Positions 6,391 through 24,965 of a stretch of DNA of 24,965 nucleotides are shown in pieces (position 1 is the stretch's first letter; each line of letters opens with the position of its first letter). Position numbers and translations under genes: made by a program. The DNA lies in NCBI GenBank assembly GCA_002343075.1, contig DDRH01000050.1:1-24965 (forward strand), written 5' to 3'. A model generated the notes under the pieces. The model ran no database searches and had not been told where the DNA came from. It saw only the letters and a list, made by a program, of their open reading frames with translations. The stretch comes from Phycisphaerales bacterium UBA2421. Lineage in GTDB: Bacteria > Planctomycetota > Phycisphaerae > Tepidisphaerales > Tepidisphaeraceae.

Positions 6391-9300
6391 CTAAATGCCC
6401 GGTGCACCAATGAGCAGGATTTCCTCGCCGATGCGTTTGTCCCCGAACGGGGAAACGGCTGCGATGGTGGTCGTGCTCGGCAGCCCTGCCGTGCGGGGCA
6501 GCCCTGCCGGCGCGGTGTTGCCGAAGTTGGCAGCAAGGGCGGTGAAGTCGCCGAGATTCACGGCACCGTCATAAGTGAAGTCGCCACTCGACCAGATGCT
6601 CGCCACGCCGAAGCCGACCGCGAGGCTTGTGAAATCATCGAGGTTGACTGTTCCATTCAGGTTGGCATCGCCCGCGAGGGTGTATCGCGCAACGACGGTC
6701 GTGGCGTCGACAGTTTCGCCGGCAAAAGTTCCCGGCGTGGTCATGATGGCCGAGGCTTCTGCGTAGCCGATAGCATCGGCAATGGCGGACGCGTTGGCGG
6801 TTGAGGAGCGAATGCCCGATCCGTTCCACGCGCCGCTGGCATGTCCAGAAGTCAATGCGGCCTGCACCGCCGCCAGGGGCGACGCGCCTGCGTAGTCAAC
6901 GATGAGCGAGCCGTCGCGCAGATCGAGGCTTGCAGCGCCCGAAGAACTGAACGCGCCGGTGCGGATGAGTCGGTCGTCCGCCGTCAGCGAGAACTGCCCG
7001 TTTCCGCTCATTGCCAGCGACGCCAGATGCTGCGATGCCGTGGCGGCAACGCTGCCGGTGCCGTTGATGATGAGATTGAGCGAGCTATTTTGCGTGTTAG
7101 CATCCACGCCGTAGAACCACACGCCTGCGGAGACGGTGAGCGTGTTGACTCCTGAGCCGCCGATAAACGACGGTGCCGCAGACGAACCGAGGTAGGTAAG
7201 CGAATCGGGGCCGCCGTTGCCGTGGAAGCTCACATTCTCGGCATCGCCGTAGTTGATCGTTCGCCCACCGATCACAATGCTGGAATTCTCAAAAGTCGCC
7301 GCGTCGGCATTGTCTCCGCCGACAAGGGTCGCGGAATCAGTCCCAGCGAGGCCGCTGAAATTGATGCCACCAGTTGGGATTGGGTTGCCGTTAACGAGAT
7401 CGACAAACAACCCATCATTGGCGGCCGAGCCGATCAGGTTAAGGCTTGCGGTTGAGACAGGCAGCGTCAGGTCGGCTGCACCAGCGCCGGTGGTATTCCG
7501 GAAGATCTCGATCATGTCGCCTGCACCATTCAGCCGGACGTACAAGCCGGTGTCGCTCTGAACCGTGGTAATGTTGGCGTTGCCAAAGTCGCGAGAGAGC
7601 ACCTCCGCCGCCGCCGCGGCGACGTTGTAGCCGCCGGTGGCTGGGTTGGTGAACGAGAAACCGCCTCCGAGTGGCTCCTGGCGTAGCACATAACTGCCCG
7701 CCTCAAGCGGCGTGAAGCTGTATGAGCCGTCGGCGGGCGTGACACGGTTGGGCTCGATCGAAATCTGGAAGAGAGACCAACTGTTCAGGGTGCCGGAGTC
7801 GCCCCCCGCATCGTCGGTGATCTCCAATTGCCAGGTGCCGTCGAGCGGCTCGCCATTAAGACTCGCCAGCGAACCTTCTGGACGCCATGTCCCCGTCACA
7901 GGTCCGACGCCCGACGCCGTTGGCCACGAGGTAACCGAGTTGGCGGCCGAATCCAGCAGCGTGACGTTTGCGCCGTCCGTACTGCTGCCATTATCGGTGG
8001 TCAACTCAACGCGCGTGCCCTGCGGGCTGATCAGGAAGATATCAAGGTCACCCATGAAAGTGTGGGTGATGTTGAGACGTACGCCGATGTTGTTCACCGT
8101 TGCTGCGGTCCCAGCGATAACAAGATTGGAAAACCGGGTGGTGCGGTCATCGGGCAGCGGCAGGGCGGTGTTCTGGGCGAAGTCGTGATTTTGATTATCA
8201 AACAGGCCATTGTTGTTGGTATCGAGGTAGACGCGCGCCCCGCCGATGCCATTCTCGCCGCCGTCCTGGGTGCCGTTGCCGTTGGCGTCGTTGTAGACCG
8301 CGCCAGCGATTCGCACTGCCGAGGTGACGCCGAAGTGGTTGTTAAGCGACGCAAGCGACGCCGGCGCGATGTTGACATTGTGTGCAGTCGCCGGCGCTGT
8401 CTGCCGGGTGGCTGCGGGGGCAACAATGCGGACGTTGTAATTGCCATCCGCAAGGCCGGTCAGTGCGTACGCGCCCTGTGCGTCGGTGACGACAGAAGCC
8501 TCGCCACCGTCGAGGGTGGAGTTGTTGTTCGCGTCGAGATAGACGGTCACCCCGCTGCGACCGACTTCCCCGGCATCAAAGACGCCGTCGTCATCGACAT
8601 CGGTAAAGACTGTGCCGGTAATCTTTGGATTGACAAAACCAAAGTTGGCGCCCGTCGCAATGGGCGTTGAGGAATTGAGGGTAAAGTTGTAAACACTCGC
8701 GCCGGTGGGACGCAGCCCACTCGGAGCGACGGCGCGCACCGCATAGCTGCCATCGGGCATGTCATTAAACGCGTAGTTGCCCGTAGCAGTGGTGATAGAG
8801 GTTTCTTCGCCGCTGTCGAAGATGCCATTGTTGTTGCTGTCCAGGAATACGGTGATGCCGCCAAGACCGGGTTCGCCGCCGTCACGATTGCCTGAGCCAT
8901 TGCTGTCTTCAAACGCGGTGCCGTAGATTCCCTGTCCTTGTTGGGTGCCGTAGATGTTGAGCGCCCAGTTGTTCCACGTGCCTGAAGTGCCGCTGACGGT
9001 ATCGGTGACGGTGAGCGTCCATGTCCCGGCGGCTTCTTCGTCCCAGAAATGTTTGGAGGTGAAGCTCCAGTTACTGTAGTTGTCGCCGGTATCGGCGCGC
9101 GGCTCGGCAAGAATCGATTGAGTGCCGCTGGGCGAGGTAAGAACGAGTCGCAACTGCCCTCGACTGAGGTGCGAGGCGTTAAGTACGACTTCAACCGTTT
9201 CGATCTTGACCGGGTCGCTCACGACGATGCTTCTGCTGACACCGGTCGTGTTTCCATCGGGAATTGCTGCCGCGACATTGCTGATGCCCGACAGCGCCGA

Positions 9301-10728
9301 GACTTCTGGTGCGACGTTGGTCCACGCCTCGGCCAGCGCAACCGCGGGGGCGGCATCGACCGCGCCAAAGCCGTAGCGGTCGTTGAAATCGTGGCCCGCG
9401 CCATTGATCTCCCAGCCGGCACCGGTGGGGTCGGTCTTTCGGGCCGAGTTGACGAGAACGTGCTGCACGTCGCGCCAAGTGAGGTTCGGGTTGGCTTCAA
9501 GAATCAATGCAATCACGCCCGCGGCGAGGGGGGCGGCTGAACTCGTGCCGCCGAAGGTGCTGGTATAACCGCTGGAAGATGTTGTACTGATGCCGAGCGA
9601 ACCACCGTTGGAATACGCACTCACGAGCACCGGCGCGCCGCGTTCGGAATAACTGGAGCGCACGCCGGTGTTGGTGATCGCGCCTACCGCGATCGTATAC
9701 CGACTGTTGGCGTACCCGTCGTAGTTGACGTTGTCACCATTGCCACCGTTGCCGCCAGCCCAGGTGTAGATGCTTCCCAGGCCGTTACGGCCATTCTGCA
9801 CGGCATTGGCGAACGCGGCGAGGGTGAGGGGGCCGGGGCCAGAGAGCGTAGTGCCGCCGTCGTTTGGCCCCCAGCTGTTGTTGTAAATGTCGATATCGTT
9901 GTTGGCAAACGTCAGTGCATTGGCTTCGGTGGCGTCGGAGACGGCCGCTGCGATCAGGCGGATGCCCGACAGGCCTGCATTGAACGCGGCGCCGGCAACA
10001 CCGACGCCATTGTTTCCCTTTGCTGCCATGACGCCCGCTACACTCGTGCCGTGAGAACCGGGCGACGGATCAGGCTCATTGCTGTTGAAGTCGTAGCTGA
10101 ACGCGGGAAGGTAGTTTGGCGCAAGATCCTGGTGGGTGGTGGTGATACCGTCATCGACCGATGAGACGACGACGCCCGCGCCGGTGTATTGATCCCAGAC
10201 GCTGGTGACGTTGGCATCGGCATTTGCCGTTCCGCCGCCCTGGCCGGTGTTGCGCAAGTGCCACTGGTTTGGGAAATTGGTGTCGTTCGGAATCAGCCTT
10301 GGAGTGTGCTGCCGCTTGAGCATCGGTGCCATGAACATGGCACCCGACTCCCGCAGGAGCATCTGCGATTGCACGCCCGGATCGACGGTAATGATGTAGC
10401 TGTTGTTGACGAACGGGGCAGGCTCAATGGACTTAGCTCCTATTGCCTGTGCGATCGCCTCAGCGCGAGCCGGCGAGCGCGCTCCGATCAGCCACTCGGC
10501 GGCGCTGTTTAGCTCTGCCTGAGTATACATCTCAAGGTCGGCAGTGCGGATGAGAGATGCCTTTACGGTCTCATCAGTGCTGACCAGCGCCGCTTCGGCG
10601 AAGGTGGCGGTGGAAGCAAGCAGACGTCGCGACTCGAGCGATTCGAGGGTGACGCTGGCAGCCCGCGCAACGGCAGTTGTGTTGTGGTTTACCAAAGAGG
10701 CACGGCGGTTAACGAAACTTTGGGGCAC
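6391..10728 (-). CDS. Giant secreted kexin-like (S8B) serine protease with P domains, SdrD/CNA-B modules and dockerin-like repeats
   Basis: A 1445-residue protein. The start is GTG 10728, supported by a strong AGGAGG six bases upstream. The N-terminus carries the planctomycete LESLESRRLLAS signature (residues 28-39). Protease domain about 145-470: catalytic Asp192 in SVDDG, His226 in SHGTSVAG, oxyanion Asn327 in AGGNGGN and Ser396 in GGTSSAAPLAAG. Stretches such as NYDGYANS and LEANPNLTWRDVQ are typical of kexin/furin (S8B) rather than bacterial subtilisins. A P (Homo B) domain follows at 483-597, as in kexins. Then come SdrD/CNA-B-like domains at about 600-698, 703-800 and 806-1050, the last with a second P-like domain (855-990) inserted. 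A Gly/Asn/Ser-rich beta-rich region runs 1055-1345, and two dockerin-like repeats (GDANLNG... and GDFTYDG...) lie at 1352-1403. Likely exported and cell-surface; substrate unknown. It is downstream of and paralogous to the next protease gene. Confidence 0.9.
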   Translation of the reverse strand: MPQSFVNRRASLVNHNTTAVARAASVTLESLESRRLLASTATFAEAALVSTDETVKASLIRTADLEMYTQAELNSAAEWLIGARSPARAEAIAQAIGAKSIEPAPFVNNSYIITVDPGVQSQMLLRESGAMFMAPMLKRQHTPRLIPNDTNFPNQWHLRNTGQGGGTANADANVTSVWDQYTGAGVVVSSVDDGITTTHQDLAPNYLPAFSYDFNSNEPDPSPGSHGTSVAGVMAAKGNNGVGVAGAAFNAGLSGIRLIAAAVSDATEANALTFANNDIDIYNNSWGPNDGGTTLSGPGPLTLAAFANAVQNGRNGLGSIYTWAGGNGGNGDNVNYDGYANSRYTIAVGAITNTGVRSSYSERGAPVLVSAYSNGGSLGISTTSSSGYTSTFGGTSSAAPLAAGVIALILEANPNLTWRDVQHVLVNSARKTDPTGAGWEINGAGHDFNDRYGFGAVDAAPAVALAEAWTNVAPEVSALSGISNVAAAIPDGNTTGVSRSIVVSDPVKIETVEVVLNASHLSRGQLRLVLTSPSGTQSILAEPRADTGDNYSNWSFTSKHFWDEEAAGTWTLTVTDTVSGTSGTWNNWALNIYGTQQGQGIYGTAFEDSNGSGNRDGGEPGLGGITVFLDSNNNGIFDSGEETSITTATGNYAFNDMPDGSYAVRAVAPSGLRPTGASVYNFTLNSSTPIATGANFGFVNPKITGTVFTDVDDDGVFDAGEVGRSGVTVYLDANNNSTLDGGEASVVTDAQGAYALTGLADGNYNVRIVAPAATRQTAPATAHNVNIAPASLASLNNHFGVTSAVRIAGAVYNDANGNGTQDGGENGIGGARVYLDTNNNGLFDNQNHDFAQNTALPLPDDRTTRFSNLVIAGTAATVNNIGVRLNITHTFMGDLDIFLISPQGTRVELTTDNGSSTDGANVTLLDSAANSVTSWPTASGVGPVTGTWRPEGSLASLNGEPLDGTWQLEITDDAGGDSGTLNSWSLFQISIEPNRVTPADGSYSFTPLEAGSYVLRQEPLGGGFSFTNPATGGYNVAAAAAEVLSRDFGNANITTVQSDTGLYVRLNGAGDMIEIFRNTTGAGAADLTLPVSTASLNLIGSAANDGLFVDLVNGNPIPTGGINFSGLAGTDSATLVGGDNADAATFENSSIVIGGRTINYGDAENVSFHGNGGPDSLTYLGSSAAPSFIGGSGVNTLTVSAGVWFYGVDANTQNSSLNLIINGTGSVAATASQHLASLAMSGNGQFSLTADDRLIRTGAFSSSGAASLDLRDGSLIVDYAGASPLAAVQAALTSGHASGAWNGSGIRSSTANASAIADAIGYAEASAIMTTPGTFAGETVDATTVVARYTLAGDANLNGTVNLDDFTSLAVGFGVASIWSSGDFTYDGAVNLGDFTALAANFGNTAPAGLPRTAGLPSTTTIAAVSPFGDKRIGEEILLIGAPGI

Positions 10729-10733
10729 GATGC

Positions 10734-10739
10734 CCTCCT
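10734..10739 (-). promoter_or_regulatory. Shine-Dalgarno deciding the GTG start of the kexin-like gene
   Basis: On the minus strand AGGAGG lies five bases upstream of GTG at 10728 (AGGAGG-GCATC-GTG) and matches the anti-Shine-Dalgarno at the window's own 16S end. It is among the few strong ribosome binding sites in this window. Confidence 0.75.
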
Positions 10740-10807
10740 GCTGAATGGGGTTGGTCAGCCTGCTGTCAATCGCCCGGCGGTAGTCGCGCGGGTTATCTCA
10801 AGCAGTT

Positions 10808-10839
10808 GCCCGGCGGGATGGTTGTCCGTCCCGCCGGGC
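10808..10839 (-). terminator. Large GC-rich hairpin between the two protease genes
   Basis: A perfect 11-bp inverted repeat (10808-10818 with 10829-10839) has a ten-base loop. No clear U-tract follows on either strand, so it may be a weak terminator, a transcript-stabilising element or an attenuator between the permuted subtilase gene (ending 10917) and the kexin-like gene (starting 10728). Confidence 0.5.
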
Positions 10840-10843
10840 CTAT

Positions 10844-10876
10844 GAACACACATTATAGAACACACATCGAACACAC
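10844..10876. repeat. Short direct repeats GAACACAC(AT)
   Basis: GAACACACAT occurs at 10844-10853 and 10858-10867, and GAACACAC at 10869-10876. The steps are 14 and 11 bases. They sit between the hairpin and the 3' end of the permuted subtilase gene. Function unknown; possibly a protein-binding site or chance. Confidence 0.45.
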
Positions 10877-10916
10877 TTTCGACAACCAACTTCAGACTTT
10901 GAGCGTTAGCTTCTGC

Positions 10917-13900
10917 TCATATGGTGACGTCCGATTTTTCCTTTGCGAGCAAATCATCACGATTCAGCGGCTGCAGCGACACCTGCGAGAAAACGCCCGG
11001 CGCCCGAACTGGACCCGTTGCCACCGCTTCGGAGGTGGATTGAACTGGGCGCGGCTGCGGCAGAGACTTCCCGAACTGCGTCGCAAGGATGGTGAAATCG
11101 TTCAAATCGGTGCTGTTGTCATAATTAAAATTGCCCTGTGAAAACACCGTGCCCGTGAGGCCAAAACTGGCCGAGAGTGCGGTGAAGTCATCGAGATTTA
11201 CGTTGCGGTCGCGCGTGGCGTCGCCGGCGAGCACGAAAAAGCTCCCGGCGGCAGCACCCGCGGTCGCGTTGCCGTACGGGTCGGCGGTGGTGCCGGCGGG
11301 GAGACTGACGGTGTAGTTGCCATCCGGCAGCACGCCAGCGGGCCCGCCTGGAATGTAGGCGAAGCTCGCGACGTCCGCATTGGCATCATAAGTGACGGAT
11401 ATATCAGCACTTGCGAGGGTCTGACTTGTCGTGGTGTTGGTCAGCACGAGGTCACTGCCCGAAAGACTCGCCGCGACATCCTCGCTGAAGCCTATCTGTA
11501 CGCGCTGAGCGGTCTCGAAAACGAAGGTCGGCGCCGCCGCTGTCGGGGCAACGATGTCTTTCTGGCCAAAAAGATTGGCTAGCGACGATTGTCCCGACAC
11601 GACGGTCACGTTGATGGCGCCATCCGACCCGCCGCGCGGGGCGAGCAGATCGGCGAAGTCGATTCGCCCGTCGCTGTTGACGTCGTTGGCTTTACCGACA
11701 CCAATGTTGATTGGGTTGTTCAACTCGGCCATGGAAATGTAGCCGTCGTTGTTGATGTCGGTGAGGTTTGCCAGCCGGGTCGCGGGAATCTCGGCTTGGT
11801 TGATCCAAATGTTTTGATAAAGATCTGGGTGTCCCATTGCCACGCCGTCGTCGGTGACGCCCACCGTGATGCGCGGGTCGCCTAGCGTGGTATCCCATGC
11901 AAGGTTGTTCTGCATCAGCGGGTGGTGTGCCTGCGAGCCATACTGCGGGTCATTCGGGGTGTATTCGCGCGGATCAAAGTTGTAGACGAGATTCGGCTCG
12001 GCGTATTGAATGAGTGCCAGACCCTGCAACTGGGCAATGGCTGCTTCGGGATTGGCGCCAGCGCGAAGCTGAATCGAGACGACTGATTCGGAATGAATCT
12101 TAAAAAGCTCGCTCGATTGCGCGACGTCGATCATTGCCGCAAGGGGCGAGTTGGGGTTGGCTGCCAGATACGCCTGCAGCGCGTCAAGGCCGGCGGCATC
12201 GTTGATGCGCGCGATCACTTCGGTCGGGCTGATCGTGACGCCATCGGGCAGCTCATTGGTCTGCCCGGGGTTGAGTTTGTCGTTATTGGCCGGTGCGGTG
12301 GTGCCCGCGCGTGCCGCTCCGACGATGAAGGTACGCGTGAGGGCATCACCGCCGATGCCGTCGGCGTTGCCATCGAGCGCCTGGCCGAACGGATCTTGCA
12401 GATTGGCCGATGCGGTGAATCGGTAGCGGTCTGGAGCCATCGCGCCGTTGACCGTGAAAAACAACCGATTGGTGCCGATCTGATAGCCGTGCGTGGGGGC
12501 AGAGGCATCGCCGAAGCCGAGCGTGAGCGGGATGATCGTATCGTCGGTAGTGCCGAACTGCTGATCGGCGCCATCGCCGCGCAACTCGAAGTTGCTGGCG
12601 ATCATCGTTGCGGGATCAAACACATTGGCCACATCCAGCGTGAACGAAGTGGGGGCCGAGGCGACAGTGGCACCTTCCGCGGGGAGTCCGGGTAGCAGCG
12701 GGGTCTGCGTGGTGTTCTTAAACTTGGGTGGGGCGATGGGCTGGTTTAGCGCCTTGTTGGAGTTGACGCGCCCGCTGCCGAGCAGGCCATTGACGGTCGA
12801 AGTTTGCAGTGCGTTGATGTTGTCCGTCGAGGCGATGAGCGCCGCGGCGACCTGTTCTCGCGTCCAATCAGGGTGTTCCGACCAGATCAGCGCCGCCACG
12901 GCCGCAGCGTTCGGCGTGGACATGCTCGTGCCGGTAAAGCTCTCATAAGTGAACGTGCTGACGTTCGCCCCGAGTGTTGTTGAGAGGATGCCCGTTCCGG
13001 GGGCGGCGAGATCGATGCCCCAGCCGTAATTGCTTCCGCTGTTGCGTACATCGTTCATTTGCGTGTTGGCGACGTAGAGCGTCGTATCAAACCGTTGCCG
13101 CGGGGGATTCAGCGCGCCGTTGTTGCCGGCGGAGTTAAAGTGGAGGACGCCGGCGTCGTACATCACATTCAGCGCATCGTGAAACGCCTGCTGCGACACA
13201 AATCCATCGACGTTGTAGCTCGTGGTGAGAATCTTCAGATTGTTGGCGGCGGCGTAGCTGTATGCGTTGAGGACGATCGTGCTGGTCCAGGTGCCGCCGC
13301 TGGTTGAATAGAAGCGCAGGGGCACGACGGTGACGCCGGGTGCGGTTCCTGCAACGCCCACGCCGTTGTCGGCTGTCGCCGCAACGATGCCCGCGACGTG
13401 GCTGCCATGGTCGTCCGAAGCCTGGCTGGGGTTGGAATTGTTGTCATTGGTCCAGAAGTCACGGCCAACGATGTCATCGGCAAACCCGTTGCCGCCCTGG
13501 TCAAGCCCGTCAGCCCACCCGCCGGAGCCGTCGTCGGCGCCGGGCGAGGTCTGCTCAAAGCCCGATTGCAGCACCGCGCGCACCTTGTAATCGCCCGGAG
13601 GGGATTCAATGCTGTAAGAGCCATTAGCACCGCTGATCTGTGAAGGTTCACCGGCGTTGAATGCGCCGTTGTTGTTTAAGTCGACATAGACGGTCCATCC
13701 CGCCAGCCCGGGTTCGCCGGGATCGCGGACGCCGTCGCCGTCGTAGTCGCCGAAGACGGTGCCATCAATCGTGCCCGGCGGTTGACGATTGCCGAAGTTA
13801 ATGCCGGTCGCCGCGCTGCCGGCGTTTGCAAGGTCGATGGTGTGGAAGCCAGCCGCCGGCGCAGTCTGATTGAAGCCCGCCTGGTTGATCTGTCGCACCA

Positions 13901-14621
13901 CATGAGTGCCGGCCGGGAGATTTTGGAACGTATACGAGCCGTCGGCACCCGAAACGGTAGAAGCCTCACCGCTGCTAAAGACCAGGCCCCAACTGTTAAG
14001 GGTTCCGGCGTCGCTGCCGGCGTCGTCGGTCCATTCGAGGCGCCAGAGTCCATTGGCTGTAAGGCCGTCGAATGATGAGAGCAGCCCTTCAGGCCGCCAA
14101 GAGCCGGTAACCAGTACACCCGACGTGGTTGGCCATGTAGTTACCGATTGGGTTGCTTCGTCATCAAGGATGACATTCATTCCATCGCTGCTGCTGCCGT
14201 TATCGGTTGTCAGTTCAACGCGTGTCCCGTCGGGGCCGATGAGGAAGATGTCGAGATCGCCGTTAAAGGTGTGGGTGATGTTGAGCAGAACATTGACATC
14301 ACTGATGGTCCCCCCAATGCCTGCAACGGTTAGATCGGAAAAGCGGGTTGTCCGGTCGTCAGGCATAGGCAGCGGGGTGTCGGTGGACGGGCGCGTCTCC
14401 TGCACGCCGTCGAAGCTGCCGTTGTTGTTCTCGTCAACAAAAACGGTCCAGCCTTGCAAGCCGGGTTCCGCGGCTTCGCGCAAGCCATTGGCATTGAAGT
14501 CGTTAAATACAGCCCCGGCGATCGAGGCCATGAGGGTTCGCCGCTCGACAGCTTCGAAGCACACTGAGGACAAACGTGCGTACCGGCGCGCCGCCGTCTT
14601 GCGGCTGATGTGATGAACCAT
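10917..14621 (-). CDS. Secreted subtilase with catalytic segments in circularly permuted order (His-Ser-Asp)
   Basis: A 1234-residue protein. ATG 14621 was chosen over GTG 14750 because GGGAG lies nine bases upstream, it places FEAVERRTLMAS near the N-terminus, and the extension would run over the guaB promoter. Order (residues from this start): SdrD/CNA-B domain with a P-like domain inserted (33-277); a second SdrD domain cut short after QTSPG (284-361); the C-terminal half of a subtilase (365-625) with His405 in DDHGSHVAG, Asn500 in SAGNNG and Ser566 in TGTSMSTPN; an Ig-like domain (652-769); an inhibitor/propeptide-like segment (795-879); the missing N-terminal half with Asp924 in VTDDGVAMGHPDL and two EF-hand-like loops (882-995); another Ig-like domain (1002-1132); and dockerin-like repeats (1133-1184). 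In ordinary subtilases the order is propeptide-Asp-His-Ser. Whether this chain is active is unknown. Confidence 0.88.
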   Translation of the reverse strand: MVHHISRKTAARRYARLSSVCFEAVERRTLMASIAGAVFNDFNANGLREAAEPGLQGWTVFVDENNNGSFDGVQETRPSTDTPLPMPDDRTTRFSDLTVAGIGGTISDVNVLLNITHTFNGDLDIFLIGPDGTRVELTTDNGSSSDGMNVILDDEATQSVTTWPTTSGVLVTGSWRPEGLLSSFDGLTANGLWRLEWTDDAGSDAGTLNSWGLVFSSGEASTVSGADGSYTFQNLPAGTHVVRQINQAGFNQTAPAAGFHTIDLANAGSAATGINFGNRQPPGTIDGTVFGDYDGDGVRDPGEPGLAGWTVYVDLNNNGAFNAGEPSQISGANGSYSIESPPGDYKVRAVLQSGFEQTSPGADDGSGGWADGLDQGGNGFADDIVGRDFWTNDNNSNPSQASDDHGSHVAGIVAATADNGVGVAGTAPGVTVVPLRFYSTSGGTWTSTIVLNAYSYAAANNLKILTTSYNVDGFVSQQAFHDALNVMYDAGVLHFNSAGNNGALNPPRQRFDTTLYVANTQMNDVRNSGSNYGWGIDLAAPGTGILSTTLGANVSTFTYESFTGTSMSTPNAAAVAALIWSEHPDWTREQVAAALIASTDNINALQTSTVNGLLGSGRVNSNKALNQPIAPPKFKNTTQTPLLPGLPAEGATVASAPTSFTLDVANVFDPATMIASNFELRGDGADQQFGTTDDTIIPLTLGFGDASAPTHGYQIGTNRLFFTVNGAMAPDRYRFTASANLQDPFGQALDGNADGIGGDALTRTFIVGAARAGTTAPANNDKLNPGQTNELPDGVTISPTEVIARINDAAGLDALQAYLAANPNSPLAAMIDVAQSSELFKIHSESVVSIQLRAGANPEAAIAQLQGLALIQYAEPNLVYNFDPREYTPNDPQYGSQAHHPLMQNNLAWDTTLGDPRITVGVTDDGVAMGHPDLYQNIWINQAEIPATRLANLTDINNDGYISMAELNNPINIGVGKANDVNSDGRIDFADLLAPRGGSDGAINVTVVSGQSSLANLFGQKDIVAPTAAAPTFVFETAQRVQIGFSEDVAASLSGSDLVLTNTTTSQTLASADISVTYDANADVASFAYIPGGPAGVLPDGNYTVSLPAGTTADPYGNATAGAAAGSFFVLAGDATRDRNVNLDDFTALSASFGLTGTVFSQGNFNYDNSTDLNDFTILATQFGKSLPQPRPVQSTSEAVATGPVRAPGVFSQVSLQPLNRDDLLAKEKSDVTI

Positions 14622-14630
14622 TGCGATTTG

Positions 14631-14635
14631 CTCCC
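14631..14635 (-). promoter_or_regulatory. Shine-Dalgarno-like GGGAG for the permuted subtilase gene
   Basis: On the minus strand GGGAG sits nine bases upstream of ATG 14621. It supports this start over the upstream GTG at 14750, for which no ribosome binding site is seen. Confidence 0.5.
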
Positions 14636-14743
14636 GCTCAAAATGTTGAAATGATGCCAACCGTGGCAGTTTCAACTCCAATTTAACCGCAACCCGCCTG
14701 GGTTCAAGCAAAATCTCGTGTTCCGCCGAAGCCAGTCGGCATC

Positions 14744-14770
14744 TTGACACCGCGCCACAACCCGTTTAAT
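14744..14770 (+). promoter_or_regulatory. Promoter of guaB, placed for a leaderless or near-leaderless mRNA
   Basis: A perfect -35 TTGACA (14744-14749) is followed by TTTAAT (14765-14770, five of six matches to TATAAT) with a rather short 15-base spacer. Only eight bases separate the -10 from the guaB ATG at 14779, and there is no Shine-Dalgarno, so the transcript would start at or within a base or two of the ATG. It lies in the divergent region between guaB and the permuted subtilase gene. Confidence 0.5.
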
Positions 14771-14778
14771 CGTGACAC

Positions 14779-16332
14779 ATGGAACACCCCCAGTCATCGC
14801 ACGGCAAGATTTTGCATGACGCAATCACATTTGACGATGTGCTGCTCATTCCCGCGCGCAGCGATTTTGTGCCCGGCGACGCGCAGACGTCGACCCGACT
14901 TACCCGTGGGATTGAGATCAATATTCCCCTCATCAGCGCCCCCATGGACACGGTGACCGAAAGCGCCCTGGCCATCGCTTTAGCTCAGGAAGGGGGGATC
15001 GGGATTATTCACAAGAATATCTCGGTGGACACGCAGGCCCGCGAGGTGGAGAAGGTGAAGCGCAGCGAAAATGGCGTGATTGTCGACCCCATTACGCTCC
15101 CGCCGTCGGCGACCATCGGGGAGGCCCGGCGGATCATGCACGAATACAATGTTTCGGGCATTCCCATCGTGGAAGGAGGCCGCGAGCGCCGGGCTGACTC
15201 CGCCGAGCCGCGTCAGGGTGTTGCCTCTGCAACACTTGGCGCGCTCAAGGGCATCCTTACCCGTCGCGACCTGAAATACCAGGAAGACGACAGTCGCTGG
15301 GTGGGCGATGTGATGACCAAGGACAATCTCATCACCGCCGAGGAGGGGACCAACCTCGATGTGGCGGAGCGCATGCTCTACAAGGCGAAGGTTGAGAAAC
15401 TGTTGCTCACCGACAAGCAGGGTCGGCTTGTGGGCCTGATTACAATGCGCGACATCGATAAGCTGCACCAGTTTCCGCACGCCTGCAAAGACACGCGCGG
15501 ACGGCTCCGTGTGGGGGCGGCGACGGGTGTGAAAGATTTTCCCCGGGTCGAGGCACTGATAGCAGCAGATGTGGATGTGATCGTAGTCGATACAGCGCAT
15601 GGCCACAGCCTGAACGTGATCGAGACGGTGAGATACATCAAGAAGCATCACCAGATTGAGGTGATTGCCGGCAACGTCGCCACCGCGGAGGGCGCGCGCG
15701 ACCTGATCGATGCCGGTGCCGACGCGATCAAAGTGGGAATCGGCCCCGGCGCGATTTGCACAACGCGAATCGTGAGCGGTGTGGGCGTGCCGCAGATCAG
15801 CGCAATCATGAACGCGGTGAGCGTTGCGGAGAAATCGGGCGTGCCCGTCATCGCCGACGGCGGCGTGCGGCACAGCGGCGACATTACGAAAGCAATCGCC
15901 GCCGGCGCACACTCTGTCATGATGGGATCGCTGTTCGCAGGCCTTGACGAATCGCCGGGCGAACTGGTCATTCACCAGGGCCGGCGATACAAGACCTATC
16001 GCGGGATGGGATCGCTTGGCGCGATGGTGCACGGGAGCAAAGACAGGTACGGCCAAAGTGGCGTGTCGCAGCTAAGCAAACTAGTACCCGAAGGCGTTGA
16101 AGGTCTGGTACCCTATCGCGGGCCGTTGAGCGATTTTGTCTATCAACTGGTAGGCGGTTTGCGGGCCGGAATGGGTTACTGCGGGACCCGAACGCTCGAC
16201 GCGCTGCGGAGCGACGCGCGGTTTTGCCGGGTGACATCGGCGAGCATGGCTGAGAGCCATCCGCACGATATTCGAATCACCCGGGAATCGCCCAATTACA
16301 CCATGGATCATTCCAGCGGTGGGAAGAACTGA
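14779..16332 (+). CDS. guaB: Inosine-5'-monophosphate dehydrogenase
   Basis: A 517-residue IMPDH, which oxidises IMP to XMP with NAD+ in the cytoplasm, the first committed step to GMP. N-terminal [14 protein letters not shown] and the barrel start [12 protein letters not shown] are diagnostic. Two CBS domains span about 98-233, then the barrel resumes with VVDTAHGHS, the NAD/IMP loop [11 protein letters not shown] with catalytic Cys327, the phosphate-binding [15 protein letters not shown] and MMGSLFAG, the GMGSLGAM loop, and the flap KDRYGQ. The first CBS domain holds an insert of about 20 residues (roughly 134-155, Arg/Ala/Glu-rich) compared with usual bacterial IMPDH. The stop codon shares one base with the ATG of the following lipoprotein gene, suggesting translational coupling. 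Confidence 0.97.
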
Positions 16333-17310: not shown

Positions 17311-17570
17311 CAGGTTAGCCCTGCGAGTTTCTTGACTTCCGCCCAGGGAATCGACTTTTGCCGTCGATCCGACATGCGCCTCAGGGCGATTGCGACGTCG
17401 GCGGCATCTTCGACCGCATCGGCTCCAGCACTCTCGGGCGCGCGTTTGGGTCGGTCGGTCTTGCTTCGGACCGTGATCAGTTTTTGGTATTCGCGCTCGG
17501 GAATCACCACAAACTTCTTTCCATCGATCTTTAGGGTCGCGATTGCCTTGGCACCAATTCTACCCGTCAA
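17310..17570 (-). CDS. Type II antitoxin, RelB/Phd-like
   Basis: An 86-residue acidic/basic protein. The N-terminal part (IATLKIDGKKFVVIPEREYQ) resembles the DNA-binding strand-helix of Phd/RelB-type antitoxins. The C-terminal part has the frequent antitoxin ending RRQKSIPWAEVKKLAG. Its partner is the broken RelE/ParE-like gene that starts on its stop codon; antitoxin-before-toxin order fits type II systems, where the antitoxin binds the toxin and represses its own promoter. The first codon is TTG at 17570, eight bases inside the end of the oligopeptidase gene, which suggests read-through from that gene or translational coupling; no ATG is available. With its toxin frameshifted it would be an orphan antitoxin. 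Confidence 0.65.
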   Translation of the reverse strand: MTGRIGAKAIATLKIDGKKFVVIPEREYQKLITVRSKTDRPKRAPESAGADAVEDAADVAIALRRMSDRRQKSIPWAEVKKLAGLT

Positions 17571-19656
17571 TCCCCAACTGCCAAAGCAAAAATGCCTGCT
17601 GCCGGGCTTCTTCTTTCAGGTCGTCGTAGCGGCCGCTCGGTCCGCCGTGGCCGCCGGACATGACGCACCTCAGGAGCAGGGGGTTGTTGTCGGTCTTTGT
17701 CGCGCGCAACTTGGCTGTGTACTTCGCTGGTTCCCAGTACATCACCTGGCTGTCATTCAGGCCGGTGTAGACGTACATCGCCGGATATTCCTTCGCGGCG
17801 ATATTGTCATACGGGCTGTATGACAGCATGTAATCAAAGGCGCTCGGGTCGTGTGGGTTGCCCCACTCGAGATACTCTTGTGTGGTCAGCGGCAATGAGT
17901 CATCGAGCATGGTGTTGATGACATCCACAAACGGCACGCCGACGATGGCTGCTTTGAAAAGCTCGGGTCGCATGTTGAGCACCGCGCCCATCGTCAGCCC
18001 GCCGGCGCTAAACCCGCTGATGACAAGCTGCTGCGGCGATGTAACGCCTTGATTAATCAGGTGTTCGGCGCAAGCGATGAAGTCGGTGAACGTATTGCGC
18101 TTGTTCATCAGCCGACCCTGTTCGTGCCAGATTTTGCCCATCTCCCCGCCGCCGCGAATGTGGGCGATGGCGAAGACCACCCCTCGGTCGAGCATGCTGA
18201 AACGGGTGGGGCTGAAGTCGTCCGTTTCCGGCAGCCCGTATGCCCCGTAAGCGTGCAGCCAAAGCGGCTTTGGTCCGGCGGGAAGGCCCCGCTTTCGAAC
18301 GATCGAAATCGGCACCTGAACGCCGTCCGGCGCCACCGCAAGCAGCTGCGCCACTTCATACTGGCTCGCATCATAACTCGGTGCAGGATCACGCTTTAAC
18401 AGGATCGATTTGCCCGTGGTTACATCAAAGTCAAACGTGCTCTCGGGGGTCACGGGCGACTCGTATTGATACCTCACCAGATGCGTCTCAAACACTTCAT
18501 TATGACTGATCGAGACATTGTAGATCGCTTCCTGCATCGGAATGACCTGCAGCGTGCCGTCGGCTGCGTGGCGAACACTCAACCGCGGCAGACCACCAGC
18601 GCGCTCCGATAGCACCGCGAAGCCGTCGAAACAGTTGTGATCCTCAATCATCACATCGTCGCGATGGGCAATCAGCTCATCCCAGCCGGCGCGGACGGAG
18701 GAGTTAACCGGCGAGGCAACCAGCCGGAAGTTGCGGCCGGTGTCGTTGGTGCGAATGAACAGCCGGTCGCCACCGGCGTGGTCGATGTAATACTCCTGGC
18801 CATTGATACGCTCCGCCACCAGGCGCGGCGGCTCGTGCGGGCGGCGGGCGTCAATCAGCCGGGCGTCGGCGGTGTCGGAGGATGCCGATGAGATCGCGAT
18901 GTACTTTCCGCTGCGCACACGCCCCACGCCGACATTAAACTGGCGATCTGGCTCATCGAACACGGCGACGACGGTTCCCGAGCCGATCACCGTGCGCAAG
19001 ACATGCGAGGGACGCTTGGAGTCATCCTCGACTGCATAGAAAAGCGTGCGATTATCCGCCGCCCACGCGAGGCTGGTGATGCGCTCGCTGCTCACGAGCG
19101 ACGTGTGGCCCGATTCAAGATCCCTTACATAAAGATGCAGATCGCGGAAGCCGGTGAAGTCGATGGCGTACGCGAGCCACCGGCCATCATCGCTGACTTC
19201 CATCGCGCCTCTACCGACATAATCATGCTGATCGGCGAACGCATTTAGATCGAGAATAACCTGTTCGGCTCCACCGGAAATGGGCGTGCGGCAATAGATG
19301 CGGTAGTCCTTTCCCGTCTCCGTCCGGCTGTAGTATTGCCAATCGCCCTGCCGGAACGGGACTTCGGTGTCGTCCTCTTCGATCCGCGCGAGAAACTCGC
19401 GATAGAGGGTCTTTTGAAGCTTTGAGAGTGGCGCGAGCGTCGCCTGGGTGTGGTCGTTTTCGCTGGTGAGATATTCGATGACCTCGGGATTGTCCTTCTC
19501 CCGAAGCCAATGAAAGTCATCGGCGCGCGTCGATCCGTGCACCGTCTGCACGAAGGGCTTGCGCGCGACCACGGGCGGCACCAAGTGCACAGCCGAACAA
19601 CCGCTGGCCAACAAAACCATGACTACTAACGCTTTCTGGAGCCGCCGGGTAATCAT
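17560..19656 (-). CDS. ptrB: Oligopeptidase B (S9 prolyl oligopeptidase family), lipoprotein form
   Basis: A 698-residue S9 serine peptidase that in characterised members cleaves after Arg/Lys in short peptides. The N-terminal beta-propeller region starts with DDFHWLREKDNPEVIEYL and covers roughly 30-430; the alpha/beta-hydrolase domain follows. The catalytic triad is Ser550 in SGFSAGG, Asp635 in TGLNDSQVMYWEPAKY, and His670 in SGGHGGPSGR. SYSPYDNIAAKEYPAMYVYT is characteristic of oligopeptidase B rather than prolyl endopeptidase. Residues 1-20 (LVVMVLLASGC) form a lipoprotein signal with Cys20, so the enzyme is likely membrane-anchored outside the cytoplasm, unlike the soluble E. coli enzyme. 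ATG 19656 has no obvious Shine-Dalgarno. The antitoxin gene starts within its last codons. Confidence 0.9.
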   Translation of the reverse strand: MITRRLQKALVVMVLLASGCSAVHLVPPVVARKPFVQTVHGSTRADDFHWLREKDNPEVIEYLTSENDHTQATLAPLSKLQKTLYREFLARIEEDDTEVPFRQGDWQYYSRTETGKDYRIYCRTPISGGAEQVILDLNAFADQHDYVGRGAMEVSDDGRWLAYAIDFTGFRDLHLYVRDLESGHTSLVSSERITSLAWAADNRTLFYAVEDDSKRPSHVLRTVIGSGTVVAVFDEPDRQFNVGVGRVRSGKYIAISSASSDTADARLIDARRPHEPPRLVAERINGQEYYIDHAGGDRLFIRTNDTGRNFRLVASPVNSSVRAGWDELIAHRDDVMIEDHNCFDGFAVLSERAGGLPRLSVRHAADGTLQVIPMQEAIYNVSISHNEVFETHLVRYQYESPVTPESTFDFDVTTGKSILLKRDPAPSYDASQYEVAQLLAVAPDGVQVPISIVRKRGLPAGPKPLWLHAYGAYGLPETDDFSPTRFSMLDRGVVFAIAHIRGGGEMGKIWHEQGRLMNKRNTFTDFIACAEHLINQGVTSPQQLVISGFSAGGLTMGAVLNMRPELFKAAIVGVPFVDVINTMLDDSLPLTTQEYLEWGNPHDPSAFDYMLSYSPYDNIAAKEYPAMYVYTGLNDSQVMYWEPAKYTAKLRATKTDNNPLLLRCVMSGGHGGPSGRYDDLKEEARQQAFLLWQLGIDG

Positions 19657-23653: not shown

Positions 23654-24238
23654 ATGAGCAGTGCACCGTTTGAGCCACTGATGGAGTTTTCATATGCACC
23701 ACCTGAACCGCATACAGACGCAGAGAGTTTGCTCCGTTTGCTAATGCTGCAGTCTGCTGGTTACGCGGCAGTCTTCTCTCCGGAGATTGTCAAAGACAAA
23801 GCAACTGGCCATAAAATTGTTCAACCGGCCGACTTGGTGCTGACAACGCCGGGCGCAGCATTTCTCCTGTTTTTCGGCTTAAACAGGAGGCGGGGTAGGG
23901 GCCATAATTTGAAGCAAGCGGCCAAGTCGCTAAACGTGCTTCGATCCGGCGCCACTTTACGTGGTACTAGCACTTTGGGAGATCTGAGCCTTCAAATCGA
24001 TCAATACGAAGTCGCAATTGTCTCGATCTCACACGATCGCTATCCCGCTGAGTTTCTGTACAAGGAATCGCAAGACTTGAGAGTTTCTGCAGCAGTAAAC
24101 CTTCCGTTAGACGTAGTGCGGGCATTTGCTATGGCGGGTGGTAGTTCGAGCGATCTGGCAGCGTTTATTGGTGGATTGCAAAAGTTAAACAAACCAGTAC
24201 CGATGACCTGCCCCCAATTCCTGTACCACTTGTTATGA
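23654..24238 (+). CDS. Orphan hypothetical protein, possibly cut short by an IS element
   Basis: A 194-residue protein. I use ATG 23654; two TTG codons lie directly in front. Features visible: an N-terminal Pro/Glu segment, then YAAVFSPEIVKDKATGHKIV, a hydrophobic stretch around TTPGAAFLLFFGLN next to a basic NRRRGRG, and mixed alpha/beta-like sequence to the end. I recognise no family. Its base composition differs: 27 of 60 bases are G/C at 23761-23820 against 46 of 60 at 23161-23220 in the transporter gene, which suggests acquisition by transfer. The stop TGA (24236-24238) directly abuts the transposase stop of the IS3-type element, so the last residues and stop may come from IS sequence. 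No clear Shine-Dalgarno or promoter was found in 23551-23653. Confidence 0.6.
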   Translation: MSSAPFEPLMEFSYAPPEPHTDAESLLRLLMLQSAGYAAVFSPEIVKDKATGHKIVQPADLVLTTPGAAFLLFFGLNRRRGRGHNLKQAAKSLNVLRSGATLRGTSTLGDLSLQIDQYEVAIVSISHDRYPAEFLYKESQDLRVSAAVNLPLDVVRAFAMAGGSSSDLAAFIGGLQKLNKPVPMTCPQFLYHLL

Positions 24239-24965
24239 GAGTAGAACCTTACGCTGCTTCGCGGGACGGGGCGCAGGGAGGGGCGAAGCCCCGACCGTAG
24301 CCCCGGCCCGCGAAGCGGCAAAAACCGCCGGGGCAACATAACCCAGCGATGAATGCGGACGGCGGTGGTTGTACTCCAGCCGCCATTGCTCACTCAACAT
24401 CTTCGCCTCCGCCAGACATGTGAACAGTTCGCTGTTCAGCAACTCATCCCGCACCCGGCTGTGGAAGCTCTCCGCGTATCCGTTCTCCCACGGACTGCCC
24501 GGCTCAATGTACAGCGTCTGCACCTGAGCCATTCCCAGCCAGGTGTTGAGCGCCTGGGCGATGAACTCCGGGCCGTTGTCCGAGCGGATGTGCGCCGGCG
24601 TCCCGCGGATCAGCAGCAACTCCTTCACCACGTCGATCACATCATCGCTCTTGAACGATCTTCTCACCTCCAGCGCCAGACACTCACGCGTACACTCATC
24701 CACGATGCTCAGGAACTTCAGCGGCCGGCCGTCCTCCGTCCGGTCATGAACAAAATCCCATGCCCACACATGATCCGGGTGCGTCGCGCTGAGGTGGACG
24801 ATCCCGTTCTCGCTCGTTCCCAGCCGACGCTTCTTATGCCGTTTTACCGGCACTTTCAGCCCTTCACGACGCCACAGGCGATAAACCCGCTTGCGATTGA
24901 TCTTGAAACCTTCGGCTCGAAGCAACGCCCACACGAAACGATAGCCGTAGCGGGGATGCTGCTTC
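24231..24965 (-). mobile_element. IS3-family insertion sequence, partial (one end visible)
   Basis: The element is identified by its OrfB-type DDE transposase; the other end and any OrfA lie right of the window. The visible end should lie close to the transposase stop. TGT at 24231 would be a typical IS terminal triplet, but without the opposite inverted repeat or a target-site duplication the boundary is a guess. Confidence 0.65.
24233..24965 (-). CDS. IS3-family transposase OrfB (DDE integrase core), 5' part outside window
   Basis: The C-terminal 243 or so residues are present. The frame is open to the window edge: codons before the first internal start read KQHPRYGYRFVWALL, which is the normal HTH_21/rve junction of IS3 OrfB. 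Next come VYRLWRREGLKVP and the RNase H-like core: first Asp in DHVWAWDFVHD, second Asp in IRSDNGPEF, and Glu in GSPWENGYAESFHSRVRDEL. The end YNHRRPHSSLGYVAPAVFA is the standard OrfB finish, with an extra Pro/Ala tail. The OrfB frame is intact as far as seen and may be active. In this family OrfB is usually made by -1 frameshifting from OrfA. Confidence 0.93.
   Translation of the reverse strand, partial: KQHPRYGYRFVWALLRAEGFKINRKRVYRLWRREGLKVPVKRHKKRRLGTSENGIVHLSATHPDHVWAWDFVHDRTEDGRPLKFLSIVDECTRECLALEVRRSFKSDDVIDVVKELLLIRGTPAHIRSDNGPEFIAQALNTWLGMAQVQTLYIEPGSPWENGYAESFHSRVRDELLNSELFTCLAEAKMLSEQWRLEYNHRRPHSSLGYVAPAVFAASRAGATVGASPLPAPRPAKQRKVLLS

Follow-up and report, generated by a model that had tools for sequence, protein, structure and literature searches.

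A planctomycete subtilase whose catalytic domain appears to be circularly permuted

Introduction

We consider it likely, from sequence comparison, that one gene in the stretch of DNA analysed here (the window; contig DDRH01000050.1 of Phycisphaerales bacterium UBA2421, 24,965 nucleotides) encodes a secreted multidomain subtilase whose catalytic domain is circularly permuted within the gene, that this arrangement is inherited in a small lineage, and that the enzyme is most probably active. The permutation itself is read from the order of the catalytic segments and from two relatives that share it; export, folding and activity of the permuted enzyme are what we infer from these. Subtilisin is a textbook case of folding assisted by a propeptide, which comes first in the chain and is followed by the catalytic domain. 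Peptidases of family S8 use an Asp/His/Ser triad, the motifs of which are given in that order in the available part of the family description (PMC1687212).

Results

Layout of the gene and of the encoded chain

The chain is built of SdrD/P-domain modules, a His-Ser half, an Ig-like domain, a propeptide, an Asp half and a tail, in that order (Table 1). The Asp, His and Ser motifs of family S8 are all present (His405, Ser566 and Asp924). Their linear order is His-Ser-Asp instead of Asp-His-Ser, and the protein is therefore filed as a permuted variant and not as an ordinary S8 member. The original prediction had placed the His-Ser part ahead of a propeptide-Asp part in a single chain; this was confirmed, with the triad codons lying exactly where it had put them, and translation of 10917-14621 (-) likewise gave the frame without stops through all junctions that it had described. 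The ATG at 14621 is preceded by GGGAG 9 bases 5' of it, and the frame itself is open up to a GTG at 14750. Two further details of the layout were revised. The SdrD modules predicted for the N-terminal part were recovered, together with a proprotein-convertase P-domain at residues 107-215 (Pfam, hmmscan) that was missing from the earlier account, and the spacer between the halves, put at 200-300 residues, in fact measures about 156 (the Ig-like domain plus a linker of about 30).

The Peptidase_S8 profile (PF00082) matches with an E-value of 3.7e-37 and 128.7 bits against a cut-off of 21.8. By hmmscan this match covers residues 368-617 and begins at profile position 26; in a genome search the local match to the same gene begins at profile position 9. 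A SAGNNG motif starts at residue 497. The propeptide directly precedes the Asp half, as is expected in family S8, and a segment HMM finds the two together at residues 800-963, the segment models having been built from matches that include the three permuted proteins described below. The Fervidolysin_NPro-like match at 841-877 (E 0.0017, 19.1 bits) lies under its Pfam cut-off of 21, so that the homology of the propeptide rests on the canonical relatives, which carry a propeptide before the Asp half.

These S8 relatives, among them the canonical planctomycete protein P0005 and the solved chains 3vv3 and 1thm, share the Pfam family, the triad motifs, the propeptide, the Ig-like domain and the tail with the permuted protein, and P0005 has the SdrD/P-domain front in common with it as well. 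In contrast to canonical S8 enzymes, the permuted chain has the order His-Ser-Asp, with the propeptide after the Ser in the C-terminal third.

Table 1 Features of the permuted subtilase gene, with positions in the window
Feature	Residues	Position	Strand	Basis
Permuted subtilase, whole gene	1234 aa	10917-14621	(-)	single stop-free frame in translation
N-terminal modules: SdrD_B-like stretches and P-domain	31-362	13536-14531	(-)	Pfam
Junction 1: SdrD module to start of His half	358-368	13518-13550	(-)	same place in P0003 and P0004
His-Ser half	371-641	12699-13511	(-)	segment HMM and match to solved subtilases
Codon of His405	405	13407-13409	(-)	motif DDHGSHVAG at 403
Codon of Ser566	566	12924-12926	(-)	motif TGTSMSTPN at 563
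Ig-like domain	647-765	12327-12683	(-)	segment HMM; name Ig-like by analogy
Junction 2: variable linker	769-797	12231-12317	(-)	alignment
Propeptide-like region	798-886	11964-12230	(-)	sub-cut-off Pfam match; before Asp half in canonical relatives
Asp half	887-948	11778-11963	(-)	segment HMM, solved-structure match, conservation
Codon of Asp924	924	11850-11852	(-)	motif VTDDGVAMGHPDL at 922
EF-hand-like insertion (DINNDGYISMAE, DVNSDGRIDFAD)	949-995	11637-11777	(-)	sequence; insertion also in some canonical relatives
Junction 3: end of Asp half to tail	994-1003	11613-11642	(-)	same place in P0003 and P0004
Tail	1018-1186	11064-11570	(-)	segment HMM; common to canonical relatives

The two halves fit a single subtilase domain

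In Deseasin MCP-01 (3vv3) the His-Ser half matches residues 73-327 and the Asp half 17-71; in thermitase (1thm) the corresponding stretches are 55-277 and 1-49. The coverage of the solved subtilases by the two halves is complementary and without overlap, the Asp-half matches to the solved chains being weak when taken alone (i-Evalues 0.00065 and 0.026). Each swapped half is homologous to a different, complementary part of a single parent domain, as is expected of a natural permutant. This complementary coverage and the conservation reported below support the proposal that the two halves make up one subtilase domain.

The break lies in an insertion of the Asp-His loop

The cut sits between the HPDL motif, which follows the Asp strand, and the His motif, and the break coincides with the end of an EF-hand-like insertion in the Asp-His loop that is known from some canonical relatives. 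The loop was measured in 107 of 118 canonical proteins, the pattern used having failed on 11; it is 101-116 residues long in 17 of the 107, including P0005 and P0014, and the median of all 107 is 47. EF-hand-like DxNxDG segments are found in the long loops of P0005, P0006, P0012 and P0014, which are those that were read. The label EF-hand is given by resemblance, because the Pfam matches fall below cut-off (EF-hand_6 at 953-968, E 0.0065) and a strict EF-hand pattern matches in just 8 of the 107 loops.

A second complete Asp motif just upstream of the His motif, which the original prediction had named as evidence against itself, was looked for and is absent. Two D[DST]G sites occur in the whole chain, and the one upstream of the His motif, DDG at 363-365, was rejected as a second Asp motif since P0005, which has a true Asp motif as well, carries the same TDDGTGGW within its Asp-His loop; DDG is loop sequence. 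Junction 3 contains GGSDG and junction 1 GADDG, both of which resemble GGAGTDDG in P0005; this short overlap weakly hints at a duplication followed by loss. Duplication/deletion is one of several routes to circular permutation proposed in the available part of PMC2395249. No duplication intermediate, that is, a protein with two copies of one half, was found among the 230 proteins compared.

Two relatives share the order and the junctions

The original prediction had called for a search of related Phycisphaerae for His/Ser ahead of Asp, and two proteins with this order were found. P0003 (1202 aa, source label lgn) and P0004 (982 aa, from an NCBI Phycisphaerae MAG) both cover 100% of the permuted core, at 71% and 66% identity over it, and are 68% and 61% identical overall to the window's gene product, P0001. 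In the alignment all three junctions fall at matching places in P0001, P0003 and P0004. P0004 is without the P-domain and without the first module, yet its junctions are unchanged. The swap is conserved in independent sequences, as a natural permutation would be.

The proteins compared number 230, of which 229 came from three protein searches and one is the product of the neighbouring gene, P0002. Among these matches both halves were present in 200 (197 canonical, 3 permuted), 29 had neither half, and P0231 had the His-Ser half only. Three of the 200 proteins that contain both halves show the permuted order, and their junctions match, so the order is not a matter of chance. The canonical order was found in 117 of the best 120 of 312 matches and in P0002; these 121 proteins, P0001 included, comprise 118 canonical and 3 permuted chains. 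A query spanning the Ig-like domain, propeptide and Asp half (P0004 residues 390-760) retrieved 78 proteins, and the permuted three were the only ones in which at least 99% of it was covered, the next best reaching 64%. The other two protein searches took the best 120 of 312 and the best 120 of 649 matches, and about 8,000 candidates were scored in each of the three, so weaker permuted relatives could be missed.

Genome searches covered overlapping sets of 61, 26, 392 and 397 genomes, as well as genome contigs (37 loci). In the searches of 26, 392 and 397 genomes, the latter two scoring at most 3 candidates per genome and keeping E-values up to 1e-30, the window's own gene was the sole source of a one-piece match to the core query. 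Within a scan of 92 loci, L093-L100 lying outside it, the listed ORFs with both halves were all canonical apart from those at L005 and L007, both of which are the permuted gene of the window itself. Two further loci, L058 and L070, belong to MAG records titled Bordetella parapertussis. Their large canonical subtilases resemble those encoded in unrelated environmental MAGs, and the titles look doubtful.

Conservation of the displaced half

All 18 of the Asp-half columns that are at least 95% conserved in 83 canonical proteins (those matching more than 85% of the profile) are kept in all three permuted proteins. For the His-Ser half, where the set was 117 proteins, the permuted three keep 54, 54 and 55 of the 56 columns conserved at the same level. 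A few highly conserved residues are altered. All three proteins have Gln in place of Asn606 (conserved in 99% of canonical proteins) and Tyr in place of Trp873 (94%), and P0001 has Ser in place of Thr407 (97%), near His405. Within the trio, Asp-half identities are 0.67, 0.59 and 0.70 at His-half identities of 0.74, 0.74 and 0.78. The 49 canonical pairs with a His-half identity of 0.73-0.80 have a mean Asp-half identity of 0.58 (sd 0.09), the compared pairs sharing proteins and hence not being independent. We see no sign in these comparisons of relaxed constraint on the displaced Asp half. Decay of this half was rejected, as the 18 columns are kept and its identity is not below that of canonical pairs.

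Trees of the two halves

Trees were built for each half from 54 proteins, numbered up to P0060, and a joint tree from 31 proteins, of which P0034 is the highest number. Whichever half the tree is built from, path length puts P0005 closest among the canonical proteins. The two halves therefore have a common history, and the same result led us to reject the idea that the Asp half was acquired from an unrelated subtilase. By identity, the nearest canonical His halves are those of P0013 (for P0001 and P0003) and P0020 (for P0004), slightly closer than P0005. In the joint tree the trio and P0005 form the starred group (100/98). A clade of the trio, which would consist of the three permuted sequences only, occurs in 0% of 200 bootstrap trees, yet with a p-AU of 0.214 it is not rejected, which leaves room for a single origin of the permuted form. 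In the trees of both halves and in the joint tree P0005 is placed either within the permuted trio or next to it. The trio may stem from a single permutation that P0005 does not share, or the permutation may have been followed by reversal to the canonical order in P0005.

Neighbouring genes and the tail

P0002 (6391-10728 (-), 1445 aa), encoded by the gene adjoining the permuted one, is an S8 protease of canonical order that contains P-domains and SdrD modules. Within this gene, 7576-8319 shares 55% identity with residues 31-279 of the permuted protein, a likeness that we read as a sign of module exchange between neighbours. The tail, from about residue 990 (11000-11600 (-) in the window), has nine more matches in the same genome at 41-53% identity, on contigs C6, C25, C31, C52 and C62, so that it resembles a surface or sorting module in shared use. 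Elsewhere in the window, the translation of 17560-19656 (-) reads like a prolyl-oligopeptidase-type (S9) peptidase, presumably a further protease, and 24233-24964 (-), at the window end, encodes what we take to be an IS3-type transposase/integrase.

Proposed folding and maturation

In the arrangement that we propose, the propeptide and Asp half would have been transferred from their place ahead of the His-Ser half to one beyond the Ig-like domain on its C-terminal side. An ordinary subtilase core would form when the Asp half folds back and packs against the His-Ser half, the Ig-like domain and linker spanning the gap between them, and the propeptide would, by analogy with the family, act as folding aid and inhibitor. 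The first residue of the solved thermitase chain pairs in the alignment with residue 887, the Y of YTPNDP; PNDP occurs in 98 of 118 canonical proteins and in each of the three permuted chains. Self-cleavage might then occur before residue 887, where propeptide and mature enzyme normally part. A cut at this boundary in canonical relatives would shed the N-terminal modules together with the propeptide. In the permuted protein it would leave one chain with the N-terminal modules, His, Ser, Ig-like domain and propeptide and a second with Asp and the tail, and hence an enzyme of two chains from which neither the propeptide nor the N-terminal modules have been lost.

We put forward tentatively, as a reading that could well be wrong, that maturation does yield two chains with the triad split between them, the propeptide and SdrD/P modules staying tethered to the His-Ser chain and assembly depending on Ca through the EF-hand-like pair. 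The built-in activation delay suggested in the original prediction is hypothetical and compatible with the permuted layout; the two-chain consequence follows more directly from the anatomy of the chain.

Discussion

The original proposal of a circular permutation that arose naturally, as opposed to a join made in assembly, is strongly supported by two proteins with the same order and junctions at 61-68% overall identity. The window does come from an assembly of 67 contigs, and the second S8 gene adjoins the permuted one and shares a module with it, so fragments from one canonical gene, or from paralogues lying side by side, might have been wrongly joined. Such an error would need repeating at the same places in proteins this diverged, which makes misassembly not credible. 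P0001 is moreover found on 6 contigs (which may or may not be independent samples), the frame is open across every junction, and GC3 is 0.70-0.79 in every segment. There is no N anywhere in the window, and repeats within 10700-14900 are at most 26 nt long and 73-89% alike. We regard an artefact as wildly improbable.

A natural permutation could still have left a dead protease, retained for its adhesive SdrD, P and Ig modules, and the changes of Asn606 and Trp873 in all three proteins lean that way. In a dead enzyme, however, the displaced half should go first, and it is here that the triad residue and all the near-invariant columns are intact, along with the rest of the triad, and that identity is no lower than in canonical pairs; loss of activity is accordingly unlikely in our judgement. 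It is similarly improbable that the halves pair between two molecules by domain swapping, activity then needing a dimer. The Ig-like domain and linker separate the halves, so either pairing is possible, but a connection that includes a linker of this length should let one chain close on itself. We therefore favour a single permuted chain that folds into an active subtilase.

Naturally permuted peptidase-type folds are known from the circularly permuted NlpC/P60 papain-like enzymes (LRAT-like and YaeF/YiiX-like), as described in the available part of PMC3142127. The likeness to the subtilase is that of a natural permutation which changes the order of catalytic residues and was kept by evolution; the NlpC/P60 permutants differ in having an unrelated, cysteine-type fold and in being described there as widespread, whereas the permuted subtilase is represented by the three sequences found. 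A natural circularly permuted subtilase was not found among the matches listed when the open-access literature was searched by titles and the starts of abstracts, most subscription papers lying outside this search, nor is one described in the available portions of PMC2837397, PMC1687212, PMC3482391 and PMC2395249.

The swap has the appearance of a genuine rearrangement, passed on by descent, in an enzyme that ranks among the best studied. Because synthesis of the propeptide and Asp strand follows that of most of the catalytic domain, the importance of their order becomes directly testable, with canonical P0005 as a matched control. The finding bears on how permutations arise in secreted multidomain proteins and on whether a protease can function with its triad divided over two chains. 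If the two-chain reading is true, it is the permutation that would determine which parts the mature enzyme retains, and activity could be held back until the C-terminal part has been exported.
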